A stretch of 64,000 nt of DNA from Paraflavitalea pollutisoli (GTDB lineage Bacteria > Bacteroidota > Bacteroidia > Chitinophagales > Chitinophagaceae). Location of the stretch: NCBI RefSeq assembly GCF_029360705.1, contig NZ_JARKMX010000014.1:806001-870000 (forward strand). The letters run 5' to 3'. Both the position numbers and the translations under genes were made by a program. This document shows positions 7,800 to 30,935 of this stretch, piece after piece. The first letter of the stretch is position 1; each line of letters starts with the position of its first letter. Below the pieces are notes generated by a model. The model searched no databases, was not told the DNA's origin, and worked only from the letters and a program-made list of their open reading frames with translations.

Positions 7800-8564
7800 T
7801 TACTTGTCGACAGTCAAACCAGCACGCAGGTACTCGCTGTTGAGGCGGGCAATATTGCTGATGGAGATCTCTTTGGGACAAACCGCTTCGCAGGCGCCGG
7901 TATTGGTACAGCCGCCAAACCCTTCTTTATCGAGCTGGGCAACCATGTTGAGGGCACGGTCTTTACGCTCGGGATCACCTTGTGGCAGCAGGGCGAGGTG
8001 ACTCACCTTGGCCGACAGGAAGAGCATCGCGGAGCTGTTCTTACAGGAAGCTACGCAGGCGCCACAACCGATACAAGCCGCATTGGCAAATGCCAGGTCA
8101 GCCTTGTCTTTCTCGATGGGCATAGCGTTCGCATCTACCGCATTACCGGTATTGACGGAGATATAACCACCCGCCTGTATGATGCGATCGAACGCCGAGC
8201 GGTCGACCATGAGGTCCTTGATAACAGGGAATGCCTTGGCTCTCCAGGGTTCTACCACGATGGTATCGCCATCTTTGTAGGCGCGCATGTGGAGCTGGCA
8301 GGTGGTATTGGCTTCCCAGGGTCCGTGCGGACGGCCATCGATATACATGGAGCAGGCACCGCAGATACCTTCCCGGCAATCATGGTCAAAAGTGATGGGG
8401 TCTCTTCCTTCGCGGATCAGTTCTTCGTTGAGTACGTCGAACATTTCGAGGAAGGACATTTCGGAGGAGATGTTCTTTACCTGGTAGGTTTCAAATTGTC
8501 CCCTATCATCCTTATTCTTTTGTCTCCAGACCTTGAGGGTCAGATTCATATTGTAATGCTCCAT
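7800..8564 (-). CDS. sdhB: Succinate dehydrogenase/fumarate reductase iron-sulfur subunit
   Basis: This 254-residue electron-transfer subunit of respiratory complex II carries electrons from the flavin subunit to the membrane quinone site. The N-terminal plant-type ferredoxin domain binds [2Fe-2S] through the CREGICGAC cluster plus the later Cys in NTTCQLH. The C-terminal domain has [11 protein letters not shown] for [4Fe-4S] and [12 protein letters not shown] for the 3Fe-4S and remaining ligands. It is the last gene of the leftward sdhC-sdhA-sdhB order, 43 bp after sdhA and just before a strong terminator. The start may be MEHYN (used here) or MNLTL five codons later. Confidence 0.97.
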
Positions 8565-8607
8565 AGTATATTATTAAAGACCGGGTAAGAGATTTCTATT
8601 GTTTCGA

Positions 8608-10581
8608 TTATTTGTAGGAACGTTGAGTAGGCTTGGCCACTTCAAACTTGAGTTCTTCTTTGTGCAGCTCCCAGTTGCTGACGGCTTTGAATTCCCAGGC
8701 TGCTACATACTGAAAGTTCTCATCGTCACGCATGGCTTCGCCTTCTTCTGTTTGCGACTCTTCGCGGAAGTGTCCACCACAGCTTTCGCGGCGATTAAGG
8801 GCATCTTTACACATCAGTTCGCCCAGTTCGATGAAGTCGGCTACGCGGTTGGCTTTGTCGAGCTCAGGATTCATTTCCTTGATATCGCCGGGGATACGTA
8901 CATCGCTCCAGAACTCTTTGCGGAGTTGCTGGATCTCGACGATCGCTTCCTGCAAGCCTTTTTCGTTACGGGCCATACCGCACTTGTCCCACATGATCTT
9001 TCCAAGACGCTTGTGGAAGCTTTCTACGGTTTGTTTACCCTTGATTTTCATCAGTGTTTCGATACGCTCGCGCACTTCCTTTTCGGCTGCTTCGAAAGCA
9101 GGATCGGTCGTGGGTATGGGCTTGGTGCGGATATCGTCGGCGAGGTAATTACCAATGGTGTAAGGGATAACGAAGTAACCATCGGCCAGACCTTGCATCA
9201 GGGCAGAAGCACCGAGGCGGTTGGCACCGTGGTCGCTGAAGTTGGCCTCACCGAGGCAATATAAACCAGGTACGGTGGTCATCAGTTCATAATCGACCCA
9301 GAGGCCACCCATGGTGTAGTGCACCGCTGGATAGATACGCATGGGGATCTCGTACGGGTTTTCGCCGGTGATCTTTTCGTACATGTCGAACAGGTTACCG
9401 TACTTGGCCTTTACAACGGCCATACCTTGTTTGCGAATGGTATCCGCATCGGGATTGTTGATACCGAGTTTGCGGCATTCGATCTTTCCATAACGGTCGA
9501 TGGCATCGGCGTAATCGAGGTACACCGCTTGTTTGGAAGTACCTACGCCATAGCCGGCATCGCAACGCTCTTTGGCAGCCCTGGAAGCCACGTCACGTGG
9601 TACCAGGTTACCGAAGGCGGGATATCTTCTTTCAAGGTAATAATCTCTTTCGTCTTCGGGGATCTCGCTGGCTTTGCGGCTATCGCCCTGTTTCTTAGGC
9701 ACCCAGATACGACCATCATTACGCAAGCTCTCCGACATCAGGGTCAGCTTGGATTGGTGATCACCACTCACCGGGATACAGGTAGGGTGGATCTGTGTGT
9801 AGCAGGGGTTGCCGAAGAAAGCGCCTTTTACGTGTGCTTTCCAGGCGGCGGTCACGTTGCTACCCATCGCATTGGTAGACAGGTAGAATACGTTGCCGTA
9901 TCCACCGGTACACAGCAATACGGCGTGTCCGAAATGACGCTCCAGTTCTCCGGTTACGAGGTTACGGGCAATGATCCCTCTCGCCTTGCCGTCGATCTTC
10001 ACGATATCGAGCATTTCATGGCGGGAATACTGTGTTACGTTACCGAGTGCGATCTGACGTTCCTGGGCCTGGTAGGCGCCTATCAATAACTGCTGACCGG
10101 TTTGACCGGCCGCGTAGAATGTTCTTTGTACCTGTGTACCACCAAATGAACGGTTGCTGAGCAAGCCACCATATTCGCGGGCGAAGGGAACACCTTGTGC
10201 CACGCATTGGTCGATGATGTTGGCACTGACTTCTGCCAGACGGTGTACGTTGCCTTCACGGGCGCGGTAGTCACCACCTTTTACGGTATCATAAAACAAC
10301 CGGAAGGTAGAGTCGCCATCATTCTGATAGTTCTTGGCAGCGTTGATACCGCCCTGAGCGGCAATGGAGTGTGCACGACGGGGAGAATCCTGGAAACAGA
10401 AGGTCTTCACTTTGTAGCCCAACTCGCCGAGTGCCGCCGCCGCGGAGGCGCCGGCCAATCCTGTTCCTACGATAATGATCTCGATGTGACGTTTATTGGC
10501 CGGGTTGACCAGCTTACAATGTCCTTTGTAATCTGTCCACTTGTTATCTAAAGGACCGGCTGGAATTTTTGAGTTCAACAT
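8608..10581 (-). CDS. sdhA: Succinate dehydrogenase/fumarate reductase flavoprotein subunit
   Basis: This 657-residue catalytic subunit oxidises succinate to fumarate with covalent FAD. The dinucleotide-binding motif [20 protein letters not shown] lies near residues 36-55. The FAD-linking His is in [15 protein letters not shown] near 85. The substrate-binding HPTCIP segment and the active-site Arg region ([14 protein letters not shown]) are present. The length and the sequence [24 protein letters not shown] fit the larger SdhA of Bacteroidota and epsilonproteobacterial menaquinone-linked enzymes. It is the middle gene of the sdh operon, separated from sdhC by 111 bp and from sdhB by 26-43 bp. 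Confidence 0.97.
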
Positions 10582-27031: not shown

Positions 27032-27078
27032 AGCACACCATGGCCGGGAGAAATCCCGCACCATGGTGTGCTTTTTTT
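27032..27078 (+). terminator. Strong terminator after the small exported protein
   Basis: AGCACACCATGG and CCATGGTGTGCT form a perfect 12-bp outer stem. An inner stem CGGGA/TCCCG closes a gaaa tetraloop, and a seven-T run follows. The next gene's promoter begins 7 bp beyond. Confidence 0.9.
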
Positions 27079-27084
27079 ATCCCT

Positions 27085-27092
27085 TATCTTTG
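27085..27092 (+). promoter_or_regulatory. -7 promoter box for the ModF-like ATPase gene
   Basis: TATCTTTG is a perfect TAnnTTTG match, 16 bp before the ATG at 27109. It therefore rules out the longer frame that would start at 27040 inside the terminator. Confidence 0.7.
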
Positions 27093-27108
27093 CCGGCCTA
27101 AATCGGGG

Positions 27109-28572
27109 ATGTATATGCAAGGATCATTATTACAACTGGACCAGGTATCGGTTAAACTCGGCGCTCAGCAGGTACTTAAAAATATTAATCTCACCATACT
27201 GCCCGGTCAACACTGGGCCATTACCGGCGAATCGGGTAGCGGCAAATCTGTGTTGGTGCATACACTAACCGGACGGCATTTTTACAGCGGGCATATTCAC
27301 GCCGCTTTCGGTACCCCGGAAACCTTTCACCACCAGATCATCGTGGTAGAGCAACAACATCGCTTTAAGGACCTCACCAACCGAAGCGATTTTTATTACC
27401 AGCAACGTTTCAATTCTTTCGATGCTGAAAGGACTGCTACCGTAGCTCAATTGTTATCGGAATACATTTCTTCGGAAAATCAGACGGAAGCCGATCAGTG
27501 GATTGGCTTATTACAAATTGGCCGGCTTTTGCAGGAACCATTGATCCAATTGTCGAATGGCGAAAACAAAAGACTGCAGCTCACGATCGCTTTATTACAA
27601 CATCCGACGGTGCTGGTACTCGACAATCCGTTTGTGGGCCTGGATGTGAATGGCCGAACGATCCTGCATGATATCCTGGGCAAGATCAGCACGACTGGTG
27701 TAACATTGATCCTTATTACCACACCCGATCAATTATCTCCCTGTATTACTCATGTGGCGACCCTCGACCATGGCGTACTGACGAGTGCGGTGCCCATCGA
27801 TCAATACGTAGCTCCTAAAGCAGTGGCACTTTCCCTGCCGGTAGAAGCTGCGTTGGCAGCGATGGCCGGCATGCAGGAAACCGATTTCGAAATGGCTATC
27901 CGTATGAACAATGTGTCGATCGCCTATGACGGAAAACATATTCTGCAAAACATCAACTGGGAAGTGAAACGTGGCGAGCGCTGGAGTGTATCGGGCCCTA
28001 ATGGTGCGGGTAAATCGACCTTGTTAAGTCTGATCACGGGCGACAATCCGCAGGCCTATGCCAATGAGATCTATCTGTTTGACAAACGCCGTGGTAGTGG
28101 AGAAAGCATCTGGGACATCAAGCGGAAGACGGGTTATGTATCGCCCGAAATGCATTTATACTTCGATTATACTGCCACCTGTTTTCAGGCGATTGCCTCC
28201 GGCCTGTTTGATACAATTGGCCTGTTTCGTCTATTGACGCCTGAGCAGGAAGCATTGGTGAACCAATGGATCTCGCTGATGCAACTGGAAGCCAAGGCGC
28301 ACCATGGCCTGACTAGACTCTCTGCGGGTGAACAGCGGTTGACCTTGCTAGCAAGGGCGCTCATCAAACACCCAGCCCTATTGATCCTCGATGAACCTTG
28401 CCAGGGTCTGGATGCTGCCCACACACAACTGTTCCGCAACCTGGTAGATGCGATCTGCGCGCAGTCGCCTACTACCCTCGTGTATGTGAGCCATTACAAA
28501 GAAGAGTTGCCTTCCTGTGTAGATAAATTCCTGGCACTGGATAAGGGGCAAGGGACGGTAACGGGGGTATAG
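27109..28572 (+). CDS. Double-ATPase ABC protein, ModF/PhrA-like
   Basis: This 487-residue protein has two ABC ATPase domains in one chain and no membrane segment. Domain 1 has Walker A GESGSGKS (residues 40-47), signature LSNGE near 148 and Walker B VLVLDNPFVGLD near 167-178, where the catalytic Glu is Asn. Domain 2 has GPNGAGKST near 296, LSAGEQ near 404 and the intact LLILDEPCQGLD near 425. This layout matches ModF (called PhrA in older literature), whose role is unclear. No permease gene is adjacent. The start is 27109 or 27115. It is convergent with the MNIO gene, with 1 bp between the stops. Confidence 0.85.
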   Translation: MYMQGSLLQLDQVSVKLGAQQVLKNINLTILPGQHWAITGESGSGKSVLVHTLTGRHFYSGHIHAAFGTPETFHHQIIVVEQQHRFKDLTNRSDFYYQQRFNSFDAERTATVAQLLSEYISSENQTEADQWIGLLQIGRLLQEPLIQLSNGENKRLQLTIALLQHPTVLVLDNPFVGLDVNGRTILHDILGKISTTGVTLILITTPDQLSPCITHVATLDHGVLTSAVPIDQYVAPKAVALSLPVEAALAAMAGMQETDFEMAIRMNNVSIAYDGKHILQNINWEVKRGERWSVSGPNGAGKSTLLSLITGDNPQAYANEIYLFDKRRGSGESIWDIKRKTGYVSPEMHLYFDYTATCFQAIASGLFDTIGLFRLLTPEQEALVNQWISLMQLEAKAHHGLTRLSAGEQRLTLLARALIKHPALLILDEPCQGLDAAHTQLFRNLVDAICAQSPTTLVYVSHYKEELPSCVDKFLALDKGQGTVTGV

Positions 28573-28573
28573 G

Positions 28574-30124
28574 CTAGTGCACTACTGCCTGGTGATGAAA
28601 CTTGTTTTCGAGGATGCCTTCACCGCCTTCTACAGCCAATTCATAATTACCTTCGAAGATCTGGTGTGGTTTGCGACCTTCTGCCAAAGCCTTCATAAAC
28701 GAGAGGGGGTCAAACGGGAAATTAACTATTCTGTCCTGTCCGTCGAGCAAGGTCATGGTATAGGCCTTTTCAAAATTAATCACCTCTTGCAGTCCGATCA
28801 CGTCAATGCTCATATCTTGTATGTATCGGATGAAGTTAGCTCCTTCCGTAGAAGCAAATGGTTCCGGTGGCGCCGTCTTCCAGAAATCGACCAACAGTTT
28901 TTCGTATTCCTCAACGCCCAAATAGATCATCAGCAGCCTTGCCGTATACCGGTAACTTTCGGACACCATCGAAGCACGGAACGTTTGTATCAGTTCTTTG
29001 ATGAGTTCTATTGCCGGATCGTTCTTCACCGATTCCCAGGGACAATGGATGGGCTGATCTACCACCAGGGCAGCCAGCACATCTTCCCACTCGGCGGGTG
29101 TAACAGTACAGATATCGATGGAGTGCTGGGATGCAGATGACTGCATCGCATGACCGCCCTCCTTCTGAGCCGTTGCCTGGGCATTATCGCCAACGGCACT
29201 AAAAGCACTCGTTGCCCTATCACTTTGTATTGTTATCCCCGCAACTGCCCGTTTTCTTCTTTTCCGCCTCTCCCAGATACGGTTCAATTGCTCGAGGTCG
29301 TGTTGCAGCAAACCATTGTTCAGATCGCTGAGGTAATCCGGGAATATCTCGAAGATCATAGCGCCGAGGTTGGGCAGTTGCGGCACCAGCGCTGCTGCAA
29401 CGTCCAGCAGGTTGTCGGGAATCTTACCACTGTGTGCATCGATGTAAAAGTTACCCCGCATCTTGCCACCGGCTACGTGTATCTCCACTACCCGCTCGAG
29501 GGGAATCTCAGCCAGAAAGTCTTGCATCGACTGCCGGCCATTGAGTTGGTTGGTGAGCAGGTTGTGCAGGTCGAGTAAGATGCCGCAATCCGCCTGTTCA
29601 ACCACATGGCGCATAAACAGGCCATCATGGATATGACCAGGTATGGTGCGCAGGTAATTGACACCGGTTTCTACTGCGATGGGTATTGGCACCTGGCGCT
29701 GCATGCTGTTGATGGTTTGCACAGCAGCCTCCACACCAGCGGGCGTTTGTAATGGAGGCAACATATAGTTGGTCACAAAGTCGCGCCCTTCATAGGTAGC
29801 TTTATTGAAACTCAAATGCTCGCTCATCCAGGGTACACCAAGCGCTTCTATCATGGTATGGTGTAAGGGATACTCCACCGGATCTGGCAATCGCGAGCCA
29901 CCGACCGGAAAACCGATGCTGTGCATCAGTTTGTGGTAAGGCAGGTTTTGTATCTTTTTCAGGGTTACCTGATCGATCGCATACTGATTGGTGGAAGGAT
30001 CGGGTTGTATCCAGTGTGTTTGAGGTTCTATTTCCAATACCTGTATCAGACCCGTGTACTTTTCCAACACGCGGTCCAATACAGGATGGTAGGTCAGACC
30101 TATACCTAGTTCAGGTATTTTCAT
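28574..30124 (-). CDS. DUF692/MNIO iron oxygenase fused to an HvfC/DUF2063-like domain
   Basis: This is a 516-residue protein. Residues 1-285 are a DUF692 TIM barrel (multinuclear non-heme iron oxidative enzyme, the family of MbnB and TglH that rewrites Cys or Asp in peptides). Likely iron ligands are visible: His103 in SEHLSF, Glu152 in VETGVNY, Asp185/His187 in DLHNLL, His216 in EIHVAGG, Asp229/His231 in YIDAHS and Glu259 in FEIFPD. A basic, low-complexity linker (286-335) leads to a ~165-residue domain with IYLGVEEYEKLLVDFW, PPEPFASTEGANFIRYI and GLQEVINFEKAY. This order resembles the DUF2063/HvfC partner, which normally is a separate peptide-binding protein. It lies 4 bp after the candidate precursor gene. 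The barrel is a confident call; the C-terminal assignment is inference from pattern. Confidence 0.9.
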   Translation of the reverse strand: MKIPELGIGLTYHPVLDRVLEKYTGLIQVLEIEPQTHWIQPDPSTNQYAIDQVTLKKIQNLPYHKLMHSIGFPVGGSRLPDPVEYPLHHTMIEALGVPWMSEHLSFNKATYEGRDFVTNYMLPPLQTPAGVEAAVQTINSMQRQVPIPIAVETGVNYLRTIPGHIHDGLFMRHVVEQADCGILLDLHNLLTNQLNGRQSMQDFLAEIPLERVVEIHVAGGKMRGNFYIDAHSGKIPDNLLDVAAALVPQLPNLGAMIFEIFPDYLSDLNNGLLQHDLEQLNRIWERRKRRKRAVAGITIQSDRATSAFSAVGDNAQATAQKEGGHAMQSSASQHSIDICTVTPAEWEDVLAALVVDQPIHCPWESVKNDPAIELIKELIQTFRASMVSESYRYTARLLMIYLGVEEYEKLLVDFWKTAPPEPFASTEGANFIRYIQDMSIDVIGLQEVINFEKAYTMTLLDGQDRIVNFPFDPLSFMKALAEGRKPHQIFEGNYELAVEGGEGILENKFHHQAVVH

Positions 30125-30128
30125 ACGT

Positions 30129-30386
30129 TTATTTGAAAACGTTTACGATCTGTGCCGCAGGATTGACAACGAAGTCTCTTTCAATGTCGAAGAAGCAAGC
30201 TGAACCGGAGATGCAGGGTTTGCAGCCGATGCGGTCGCCCAGTTCGCGCAGCATTTTGCCGAAGAGGTCGATGTCATTGGCGACGTTGACAGGGAGGGTA
30301 ACGCGAATGGCGGCGCTTTTGGCTGCCAGTGAGGAAGCAGCTGGCAGTGAGGCTACGGATGCTCCTGATGCTAATTTTGCGTCCAT
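30129..30386 (-). CDS. Candidate RiPP precursor peptide for the MNIO enzyme
   Basis: This 85-residue peptide ends 4 bp before the MNIO start, so the two are co-transcribed and probably translationally coupled. Residues 1-26 are Ala/Ser-rich. Residues 27-53 (IRVTLPVNVANDIDLFGKML and onward) look like an amphipathic leader. Residues 54-66 hold the core-like GCKPCISGSACFF with Cys55, Cys58 and Cys64. The tail contains Asp67, Arg70 and Asp71, then VVNPAAQIVNVFK. It has no secretion signal. MNIO enzymes typically modify Cys or Asp in such peptides, so this is the natural substrate candidate. A small metal-binding protein is the alternative reading. Confidence 0.8.
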   Translation of the reverse strand: MDAKLASGASVASLPAASSLAAKSAAIRVTLPVNVANDIDLFGKMLRELGDRIGCKPCISGSACFFDIERDFVVNPAAQIVNVFK

Positions 30387-30420
30387 GATAACGGTGTTTG
30401 TTGTTTTAAATAGGTTTCTT

Positions 30421-30612
30421 TTACGTCGAAACTTTCACGCCTGTGTTGCGCACAGGAATGCCGTTTCCTGCTAGTTTTTGTGGCAGGGCAAGCTTTATGC
30501 ACGATGGTTTCATCGATGTCTGGTTGACGGGCGGGTGTGGGTTGGAACAGCTGGCAATCTGTTCCGGAGCTAATGGAAGATGGTCGGAAGGATCTTTCGC
30601 CTTGCAGGTCAT
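30421..30612 (-). CDS. Possible second small peptide gene upstream of the MNIO operon
   Basis: This frame reads in the same direction and ends 34 bp before the precursor gene. From the ATG at 30612 it encodes 63 residues; a TTG at 30660 would give 79. It has three Cys (residues 3, 22, 38), is Pro/Ser-rich, and ends in a basic segment. Residues 39-50 (IKLALPQKLAGN) resemble residues 27-38 of the precursor (IRVTLPVNVAND): I, basic, aliphatic, small, L, P, then an Ala in register. This hints at a related leader, but the match is short and may be chance. No clear ribosome-binding site or promoter is seen. Confidence 0.35.
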   Translation of the reverse strand: MTCKAKDPSDHLPLAPEQIASCSNPHPPVNQTSMKPSCIKLALPQKLAGNGIPVRNTGVKVST

Positions 30613-30713
30613 ATCCGGCGATTGAAAAGCTAAGGTACTACCTGACGAAGCGGAAGTCAATACAACGTTGGTGGTAATCTGGTGGCGCTTATGGTAGGGG
30701 GAATAGTGCTTTG

Positions 30714-30729
30714 TACCACGAACGTGGTA
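30714..30729. promoter_or_regulatory. Perfect 7+2+7 palindrome upstream of the MNIO operon
   Basis: TACCACG and CGTGGTA flank two bases. The site lies between the leftward peptide/MNIO genes and the rightward tRNA promoter, about 100 bp before the possible second peptide gene. Its size and symmetry fit a dimeric regulator site, but no regulator gene is adjacent. Confidence 0.4.
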
Positions 30730-30767
30730 TGGTGGAAGCCCGGCAACGAATATTTTTTCAGAAAAGT

Positions 30768-30799
30768 TTGTACTGTAATCCTATTTTTCCTTACTTTTG
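30768..30799 (+). promoter_or_regulatory. Promoter of the tRNA-Lys gene
   Basis: A TTG at 30768-30770 and TACTTTTG at 30792-30799 (perfect TAnnTTTG) are spaced 21 bp apart. The tRNA begins 56 bp downstream. Confidence 0.65.
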
Positions 30800-30854
30800 C
30801 AATCCCTTTTACGAAAAGCATTGTTTACGGTGCTGTAAACGGGAAACAAGGTCA

Positions 30855-30928
30855 GACTCCCTAGCTCAGTTGGTTAGAGCTACTGACTCTTAATCAGTAG
30901 GTCCTGGGTTCGAGTCCCAGGGGGGTCA
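30855..30928 (+). tRNA. tRNA-Lys (anticodon CTT)
   Basis: The cloverleaf can be folded by hand. The acceptor GACTCCC pairs with GGGGGTC (one G-U). The D stem is GCTC/GAGC. The anticodon stem ACTGA/TCAGT closes the loop CTCTTAA, giving anticodon CTT. The T stem CTGGG/CCCAG closes TTCGAGT. The discriminator is A, and CCA is not encoded. A terminator follows directly. Confidence 0.95.
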
Positions 30929-30935
30929 CTAAGAA

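Follow-up and report, generated by a model that had tools for sequence, protein, structure and literature searches.

A fused MNIO and DUF2063-like enzyme of Paraflavitalea pollutisoli and the small CxxC protein encoded beside it: a probable enzyme and substrate pair

Can an MNIO carry its partner protein within its own chain and, if so, what would such an enzyme act upon? MNIOs are a fast-growing enzyme family in which the need for a partner and the mode of substrate presentation are still being worked out, and the question was raised by a 64,000-nucleotide stretch of the Paraflavitalea pollutisoli genome (contig NZ_JARKMX010000014.1, positions 806,001 to 870,000 of the forward strand; here called the window). 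An original prediction, made from the letters alone, had proposed that an MNIO (DUF692) barrel continues without a stop into an HvfC-like domain, and that this enzyme forms a compact two-gene system with a cysteine-containing peptide. The fused enzyme and the adjacent peptide were confirmed as a real observation, and the two genes probably specify an enzyme and its substrate. Their features are as follows, in window coordinates.

28574..30124, minus strand: fused-enzyme gene, ATG start, 516 residues plus stop, without an internal stop
29255..30124, minus strand: MNIO (DUF692) TIM-barrel domain, residues 1-290, placed by Pfam PF05114 and Foldseek
29105..29254, minus strand: linker, residues 291-340, of low model confidence (block means of the predicted local distance difference test, pLDDT, 47-68) and longer than in aligned relatives
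28619..29104, minus strand: DUF2063-like partner domain, residues 341-502, placed by hhalign with shuffled controls and by AlphaFold2 secondary structure
30129..30386, minus strand: gene of the 85-residue peptide, the substrate candidate; 40 of the 41 related loci encode a homologue of its domain ahead of the enzyme
30213..30224, minus strand: codons of Cys55-Lys-Pro-Cys58, the conserved CxxC, with both Cys kept in 42 of 56 domain copies
30195..30197, minus strand: codon of Cys64, a column that is not conserved across the family

The single unbroken enzyme frame, the 85-residue peptide 4 bp upstream on the same strand, and the positions of Cys55, Cys58 and Cys64 were all as predicted. The system had been drawn as far as position 30729, but the pair ends at 30386.

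The first domain is firmly a member of the MNIO family. Residues 8-256 matched PF05114 (MbnB_TglH_ChrH) with an E-value of 4.8e-35 (121.5 bits against a cut-off of 25), and the TglH sequence of 8hci matched the window enzyme at E 2e-18. An AlphaFold2 model, made with 37 aligned fused enzymes as input (pLDDT 87.7, predicted template modelling score 0.87), was used for a Foldseek search; the nine best PDB matches were all MNIOs (TglHI 8hci and 8hi7, 3bww and MbnB), and the predicted structure matched TglHI 8hci at E 7.9e-19, which points to an MbnB/TglH-type TIM barrel. Nine residues were invariant in the 37 aligned enzymes (H68, H103, E152, D185, N188, H216, D229, H231 and E259) and face residues of similar kind when the enzyme is aligned with TglH. 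These His, Glu, Asp and Asn residues we take, from the MbnB and TglH structures, to be iron ligands, and both iron binding and O2-dependent oxidation are predicted. The enzyme fell into no named MNIO subfamily of NCBIfam, every score lying under its cut-off (BufB, NF050167, 95.2 against 310 bits; ChrH, NF050165, 54.6 against 600; ApyH, 83 against 400; HvfB, 82 against 360; MbnB, 23 against 325).

Judged by profile comparison, the C-terminal domain is DUF2063-like and similar to PME-type 2 partners, that is, remotely related to DUF2063 without its Pfam signature. The three landmarks that had suggested the relationship (LG..EYEKLLVDFW, PP...S..GANFIRYI and LQEVINFEKAY) are present. Pfam matched nothing in the domain of the window enzyme, and the PF09836 cut-off was not reached; among 26 homologous C-terminal domains, however, six matched DUF2063 at E ≤ 10, the best being that of locus L061 (E 2.1e-4, 21.9 bits against a cut-off of 27.2), and DUF2063 was the sole Pfam family matched by more than one of the 26. 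A profile search of PDB sequences with the C-terminal domain alignment matched neither NGO1945 (3dee) nor TglI, and in the Foldseek search with the whole enzyme model the best 50 of 1474 matches all lay on the barrel. Because the plain profile and PDB sequence searches had failed to give a DUF2063 or TglI/3dee match, hhalign with shuffled controls was adopted. Aligned with 12 DUF2063 partners (13 were found, and L111 was excluded because the frame there is an MNIO), the domain scored 57.5 over 94 columns (probability 95, E 4e-8 for one comparison), against at most 18.1 for 40 column-shuffled versions and 13.7 for a reversed version. The proposed HvfC/DUF2063 relationship was therefore recovered by profile-profile comparison, with no unrelated family matched, although the window domain itself lies below detection by the DUF2063 profile. 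The alignment spans the DUF2063 half, and the domain ends about where the RRE half of a full partner starts; in the model, helices occupy residues 343-461 and are followed by a strand-helix-strand unit at 465-498, which would be a remnant of the RRE half. A search of the host genome (8.76 Mb) with PF09836 gave no DUF2063 match, so that no separate type-1 partner was found there.

The pairing was tested with relatives in other genomes. A single scan of GTDB genome contigs, with three fused enzymes as queries and two short patterns, gave 41 loci, and since only these two patterns were scanned the true family is probably larger. Single frames of 408-493 residues, all reaching into the C-terminal domain, were present in 36 loci; in L098 and L099 the enzyme is cut off by the end of the contig, L075, L084 and L094 have a broken or stopped frame, and L088 and L091 lack the last part of the C-terminal domain. 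The loci carry ten phylum labels: Pseudomonadota, Bacteroidota, Balneolota, Acidobacteriota, Actinomycetota, Chloroflexota, Fibrobacterota, Myxococcota, Nitrososphaerota and Verrucomicrobia (L099). The archaeal representative, L062 (Nitrosothermus), encodes a fused MNIO and a peptide at 7995-9514, on a contig that itself looks archaeal because of its pantoate-pathway genes (an archaeal 4-phosphopantoate--beta-alanine ligase, 309.5 bits against 300, and a pantoate kinase-like match, 155 against 500).

A homologous peptide domain lies upstream and on the same strand in 40 of the 41 loci, at distances from a 20-nt overlap to a gap of about 75 nt, mostly overlapping or within 40 nt, as counted from enzyme starts chosen by the analyst. 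These 40 include near relatives and so are not 40 independent cases. A peptide hidden Markov model (HMM), built from twelve seeds from the window and nine loci, recovered 31 of the 32 non-seed loci, the weakest being L087 (E 0.024). In the sole exception, L084 (7989-9098), the enzyme is stopped prematurely at 369 residues and no peptide lies upstream; its genome gave no peptide match at E ≤ 0.01. Both halves of the system appear to have been lost together in that genome. As a control, the flanks of 53 unfused MNIO loci (about 0.8-1.5 kb on each side) held no peptide at E ≤ 0.1, the best value being 0.12. The expectation that the peptide would accompany homologous fused enzymes thus held across the family.

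Genome scans agreed with this pattern. Of 395 genomes searched from the phylum of the window, six had a peptide match: in three it was strong (G000, G305 and G803) and each time beside a fused enzyme, while the three weak ones (G588, G604 and G712, E about 7e-4) look like chance frames, with no fused-MNIO match in the roughly 3 kb covered. In the class to which G914 (Massilia) belongs, two of 321 genomes had matches, both adjoining fused enzymes. Four of the scanned genomes (G103, G305, G803 and G914) are the same records as L069, L072, L078 and L064, which leaves G1052 as the only new one, and the peptide of G103, from the same family as the window's host, is identical to that of L069 (Chitinophagaceae bacterium UBA4857). 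The fused-enzyme family is sparse in the window's lineage, with the C-terminal domain matched in two of 195 genomes of the family and two of 395 of the class, the window's own counted each time, and a fused enzyme in one of five genomes of the genus.

The peptide is under purifying selection. The ratio of non-synonymous to synonymous substitution rates (dN/dS) was 0.04-0.33 in 11 of 12 peptide pairs and 0.60 in the pair with L064, where a Cys has been lost; for the enzyme it was 0.05-0.23, the pairs not being independent of one another. A chance association or a pseudogene was ruled out by these values together with the pairing in 40 of 41 loci.

In a tree of MNIO domains, the 37 fused sequences fell on one side of a branch and the 53 unfused on the other (SH-aLRT support 99), although this tree was built by a quick method, its unfused rows came from the window's class only, and the program warned of meeting long branches. 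A more careful tree again separated the fused domains from four unfused rows, with support of 100/100. The window's own row is long; its neighbours, at modest support, are rows from Acidobacteriota, Chloroflexota and Alphaproteobacteria. A transfer into this lineage was considered and set aside: a grouping of the window with Bacteroidota was rejected (p 0.00097) only when the Balneolota row nested among them was left out, and with that row included it was not rejected (p 0.295), so no transfer is claimed. Since the pair is spread over ten phylum labels, among them that of a nitrososphaerote archaeon, it could be an ancient module or a mobile one. Plasmid carriage was set aside, as the 37 PLSDB records that matched the enzyme all did so over less than 80% of its length.

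The peptide itself carries the motif GCKPCISG in its interior. Its conserved core consists of V-x-V-x-hydrophobic-P, a helix, GC-x-x-C-x-SG, and FDIRF-like and FVVD-like stretches, and AlphaFold2 predicted, with moderate confidence, one beta-alpha-beta-beta domain (pLDDT 74.8; five models, mean pLDDT 58.7-74.8). A fold search against PDB gave nothing at E ≤ 0.001 (best E 0.43), and the window peptide had no NCBIfam match and one sub-threshold Pfam match (E 0.25). Hydropathy of the N-termini showed no strong hydrophobic stretch and no clear signal peptide, and the marks of bufferin and captophorin precursors (a Sec signal peptide, and EGKCG, Cys-Lys or DUF2282) were not found.

Across 56 domain copies (E ≤ 0.1), CxxC is present in 42, HxxC in eight (one of which, in L087, is a weak match) and the second Cys in 51, and at least one CxxC domain occurs in 36 of the 41 loci. 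The peptide had originally been described by a CxxC-x5-C pattern, of which the GCxxCxSG part proved to be family-wide, while a Cys in the column of Cys64 is limited to five listed loci (the window, L060, L075, L090 and L099). The family feature, as read from these alignments, is GCxxCxSG and not Cys64, and [C/H]xxC-x-[S/T]G describes the motif more accurately. Two peptide domains are joined in one chain in 12 of the 41 loci, and in the two-domain peptides of Rhodobacterales-type hosts (L077, L080, L081, L082, L085, L086, L093 and L094) the second copy reads HxxC in seven of eight. Exchange of Cys and His is typical of metal ligands, and a role with metals, which could be assayed directly, is suggested by the Cys/His-x-x-Cys pattern.

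The reading that we consider likely is that the two genes encode an enzyme-substrate pair, in which enzyme and partner in one chain would oxidise the GCxxCxSG motif of a small protein in the cytosol, perhaps as part of metal handling. The MNIO barrel would carry an iron cluster, and the fused DUF2063-like domain, with its truncated RRE remnant, would stand in for the partner that other MNIOs have as a separate protein, docking the small protein via its N-terminal beta-strand and helix and so presenting the GCxxCxSG loop to the iron site. There the second Cys (Cys58), and perhaps also the first, would be oxidised with O2; Cys58 is preferred because the second Cys is kept in nearly all copies, whereas the first position is Cys or His in most. 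The chemistry would most likely be a four-electron oxidation (-4 Da), as for 5-thiooxazole or oxazolone-thioamide in other MNIO products, an expectation drawn from two precedents: fontiphorin, which loses four H per repeat (PMC13097082), and DybH, which gives -4 Da (PMC12636315). As neither a signal peptide nor a peptidase or exporter is conserved, the product is probably a small, modified, metal-binding protein that remains cytosolic. The fusion, the relationships of its domains, the pairing, the conserved motif and the purifying selection are observed, while the peptide's role as substrate, the Cys that is modified, the docking, the chemistry and the link to metals are inferred.

Several observations weigh against this reading. 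The full CxxC is missing in five of the 41 loci: the peptide of L059 has no Cys, L064 has only the first, L068 (cut at a contig edge) and L087 have only the second, and L084 has no peptide. Two of these, L059 (peptide 400-678) and L064 (471-893), have complete enzymes all the same, so that either the enzyme can at times do without the Cys pair or it has another substrate. The genomes of L059, L064, L068, L084 and L087 yielded no additional peptide, and in a search of the whole genome of L087 even its own peptide did not reach E 0.01. Mucilaginibacter-type loci carry extra Cys-free copies with GYPDGYAGF and similar sequences (L072, 7217-7555; L098, 7324-7557; L071, 7320-7577). The motif lies within a compact conserved domain, and not in a peptide with a leader and a variable core. 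Lastly, the bufferin operon beside the pair in G1052 (see below) is a single case: no second MNIO or DUF2063 gene was found in the available flanks of the window and of 39 other loci, although the same HMMs find both in G1052. The CxxC-free peptides of L059 and L064 may mark decaying or altered systems.

Some of the same features would also suit a small protein that is a fixed subunit or regulator (an activator, metal donor or adaptor), whose Cys bind metal and are not modified. Such a protein could well be a compact conserved domain, could exchange its first Cys for His, as metal ligands do and as eight of the 56 copies have done, and could persist in Cys-free form. This explanation is nevertheless unlikely, as tandem domains and the tandem peptide genes of G1052 suit a substrate better, and as the order found here, with the small gene ahead of the MNIO gene, is the usual one for precursors according to the survey in PMC12452194.

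Another alternative takes its model from ChrH and DybH, MNIOs that use both Cys of CPxC for a macrocycle or hydantoin, and not thiooxazoles, without a recognition partner. Bacteroidota systems of the ChrH type also consist minimally of a precursor and an MNIO, the enzyme has an extra C-terminal helical bundle and the precursor ends in CPxCGxG (PMC12636315); many of the peptides described here read GCPxCxSG, and the -4 Da of DybH is the shift predicted above. A ChrH-like origin of the C-terminal bundle was rejected, as hhalign with 13 ChrH-like proteins scored 9.3, below the shuffled maximum of 18.8; the tree places the two kinds of MNIO domain at a distance from each other, and the ChrH model scored 54.6 bits against its 600. 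In addition, precursors of the ChrH type (ChrH, DybH and ChsH; chryseobasins, DAG-RiPPs) bear the motif at the C-terminus, and those of the family loci look like lipoproteins; in the present peptides the motif is internal, with conserved residues after it. A ChrH/DybH-like chemistry is, on this evidence, distinctly unlikely. The host genome does encode a second MNIO that is of the ChrH/DybH type (379 residues; G000:C15:3134059-3134544; L002, frame 1174-2310), adjoining a lipoprotein-like open reading frame (ORF) that ends in CPACGMG, and in similar family loci an ORF ending in a like motif was present in 12 of 12 examined.

The surroundings of the pair were then compared among relatives. Clustering of 2470 ORFs of at least 80 residues, from the window and 39 of the 41 loci, gave 262 clusters, of which nine span at least two phyla: the peptide (27 loci by BLAST), response regulators/kinases (nine loci), ABC ATPases (eight), short-chain dehydrogenases (four), FAD reductases (three) and four clusters with two loci each, the family names being the analyst's reading. 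Apart from the peptide, these are common types, scattered and without a fixed position, which bears out a compact two-gene system. No leader-removal or export family was seen among the nine, the ABC ATPase cluster having no fixed place, and the peptide is accordingly a putative RiPP. A hint at metals, and the sole one from context, came from G1052 (L136, 517-6907, 6.4 kb), where BufA2, BufB and a DUF2063 partner are followed by two GCTACCSG peptide genes and a fused enzyme of 494 residues. The bufferin operon ends about 280 bp before the peptide genes, BufA2 and BufB score above their NCBIfam cut-offs and the DUF2063 partner above that of Pfam, and an FTR1-type iron permease lies after the fused enzyme on the opposite strand.

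Within the window, two further features flank the pair.

27040-28572, plus strand: ABC ATPase pair resembling ModF (NCBIfam 367 bits against a cut-off of 459), convergent with the enzyme gene
30855-30929: tRNA-Lys, within 500 bp of the peptide-enzyme pair

The archaeal pair of L062 likewise has a tRNA gene nearby (tRNA-Glu, on the other strand, about 10 bp past the enzyme). Between the peptide gene and the tRNA-Lys, the DNA of 30387-30850 is unique within the host genome, and no part of the two-gene system was found in it. An ORF in this interval (30421-30660, minus strand, 79 residues, TTG start, three Cys) lies upstream of the peptide gene, also in DNA unique in the genome, and is probably due to chance. 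A single relaxed match, 243 bp upstream, to a Bacteroidota-like promoter consensus is not pressed as evidence.

These results may, tentatively, describe a new class that occurs in Bacteria and in one archaeon or more. Its MNIO would contain a DUF2063-type partner in the same chain and act on a [C/H]xxC-x-[S/T]G domain that is folded and not secreted, either alone or in tandem, to give an intracellular modified metalloprotein and not an exported peptide. It is also possible, if somewhat doubtful, that the peptide belongs to a precursor family already published, adjamnio-7 or else adjamnio-1 or -2, so that the fusion alone is new. Adjamnio-7 putative precursors have no signal peptide, contain CxxC and lie beside MNIO cluster 7, and may be the same substrate family, the comparison being by description only, while adjamnio-1 is represented by a Massilia protein (both PMC12452194), and Massilia is among the hosts found here. 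On the other side, the accessible text of that survey names no fusion of an MNIO with its partner, only MNIO|nitroreductase and the MovX winged helix. Nor was an MNIO-DUF2063 fusion found in the available parts of PMC12452194, PMC12636315, PMC13097082, PMC13174530 and PMC12710340 or in search listings of other open-licence papers; the added domains named in the texts are nitroreductase, the MovX winged helix and the ChrH helical bundle (PMC12452194, PMC12636315). Which MNIOs act without partner proteins has been left to future studies (PMC12452194). A natural fusion of enzyme and partner, with a short and apparently folded substrate, fixes the stoichiometry of the two, so that the partner question becomes testable with two co-expressed genes.

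Among known systems, MovX and MNIO|nitroreductase also join an MNIO to an extra domain in one chain, but that domain is a winged helix or a nitroreductase and is not DUF2063-like (PMC12452194). The C-terminal domain resembles more specifically the PME-type 2 partners, kin of TglI, which are DUF2063-like but missed by the DUF2063 profile, often have a truncated RRE and act beside signal-less precursors (PMC12452194); these partners are separate genes, whereas in the window enzyme the equivalent domain is fused. The general plan of an MNIO barrel, a DUF2063-type helper and a small Cys protein encoded just upstream is shared with the bufferin and captophorin systems (BufABC, HvfABC and FonABC). 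In those, the helper is separate and full-length, and the precursors carry a signal peptide with EGKCG, Cys-Lys or DUF2282 (PMC12452194, PMC13097082), while the system described here has enzyme and helper in one chain, an apparently truncated recognition half, and a small protein without a clear signal peptide that bears GCxxCxSG within a predicted folded domain.

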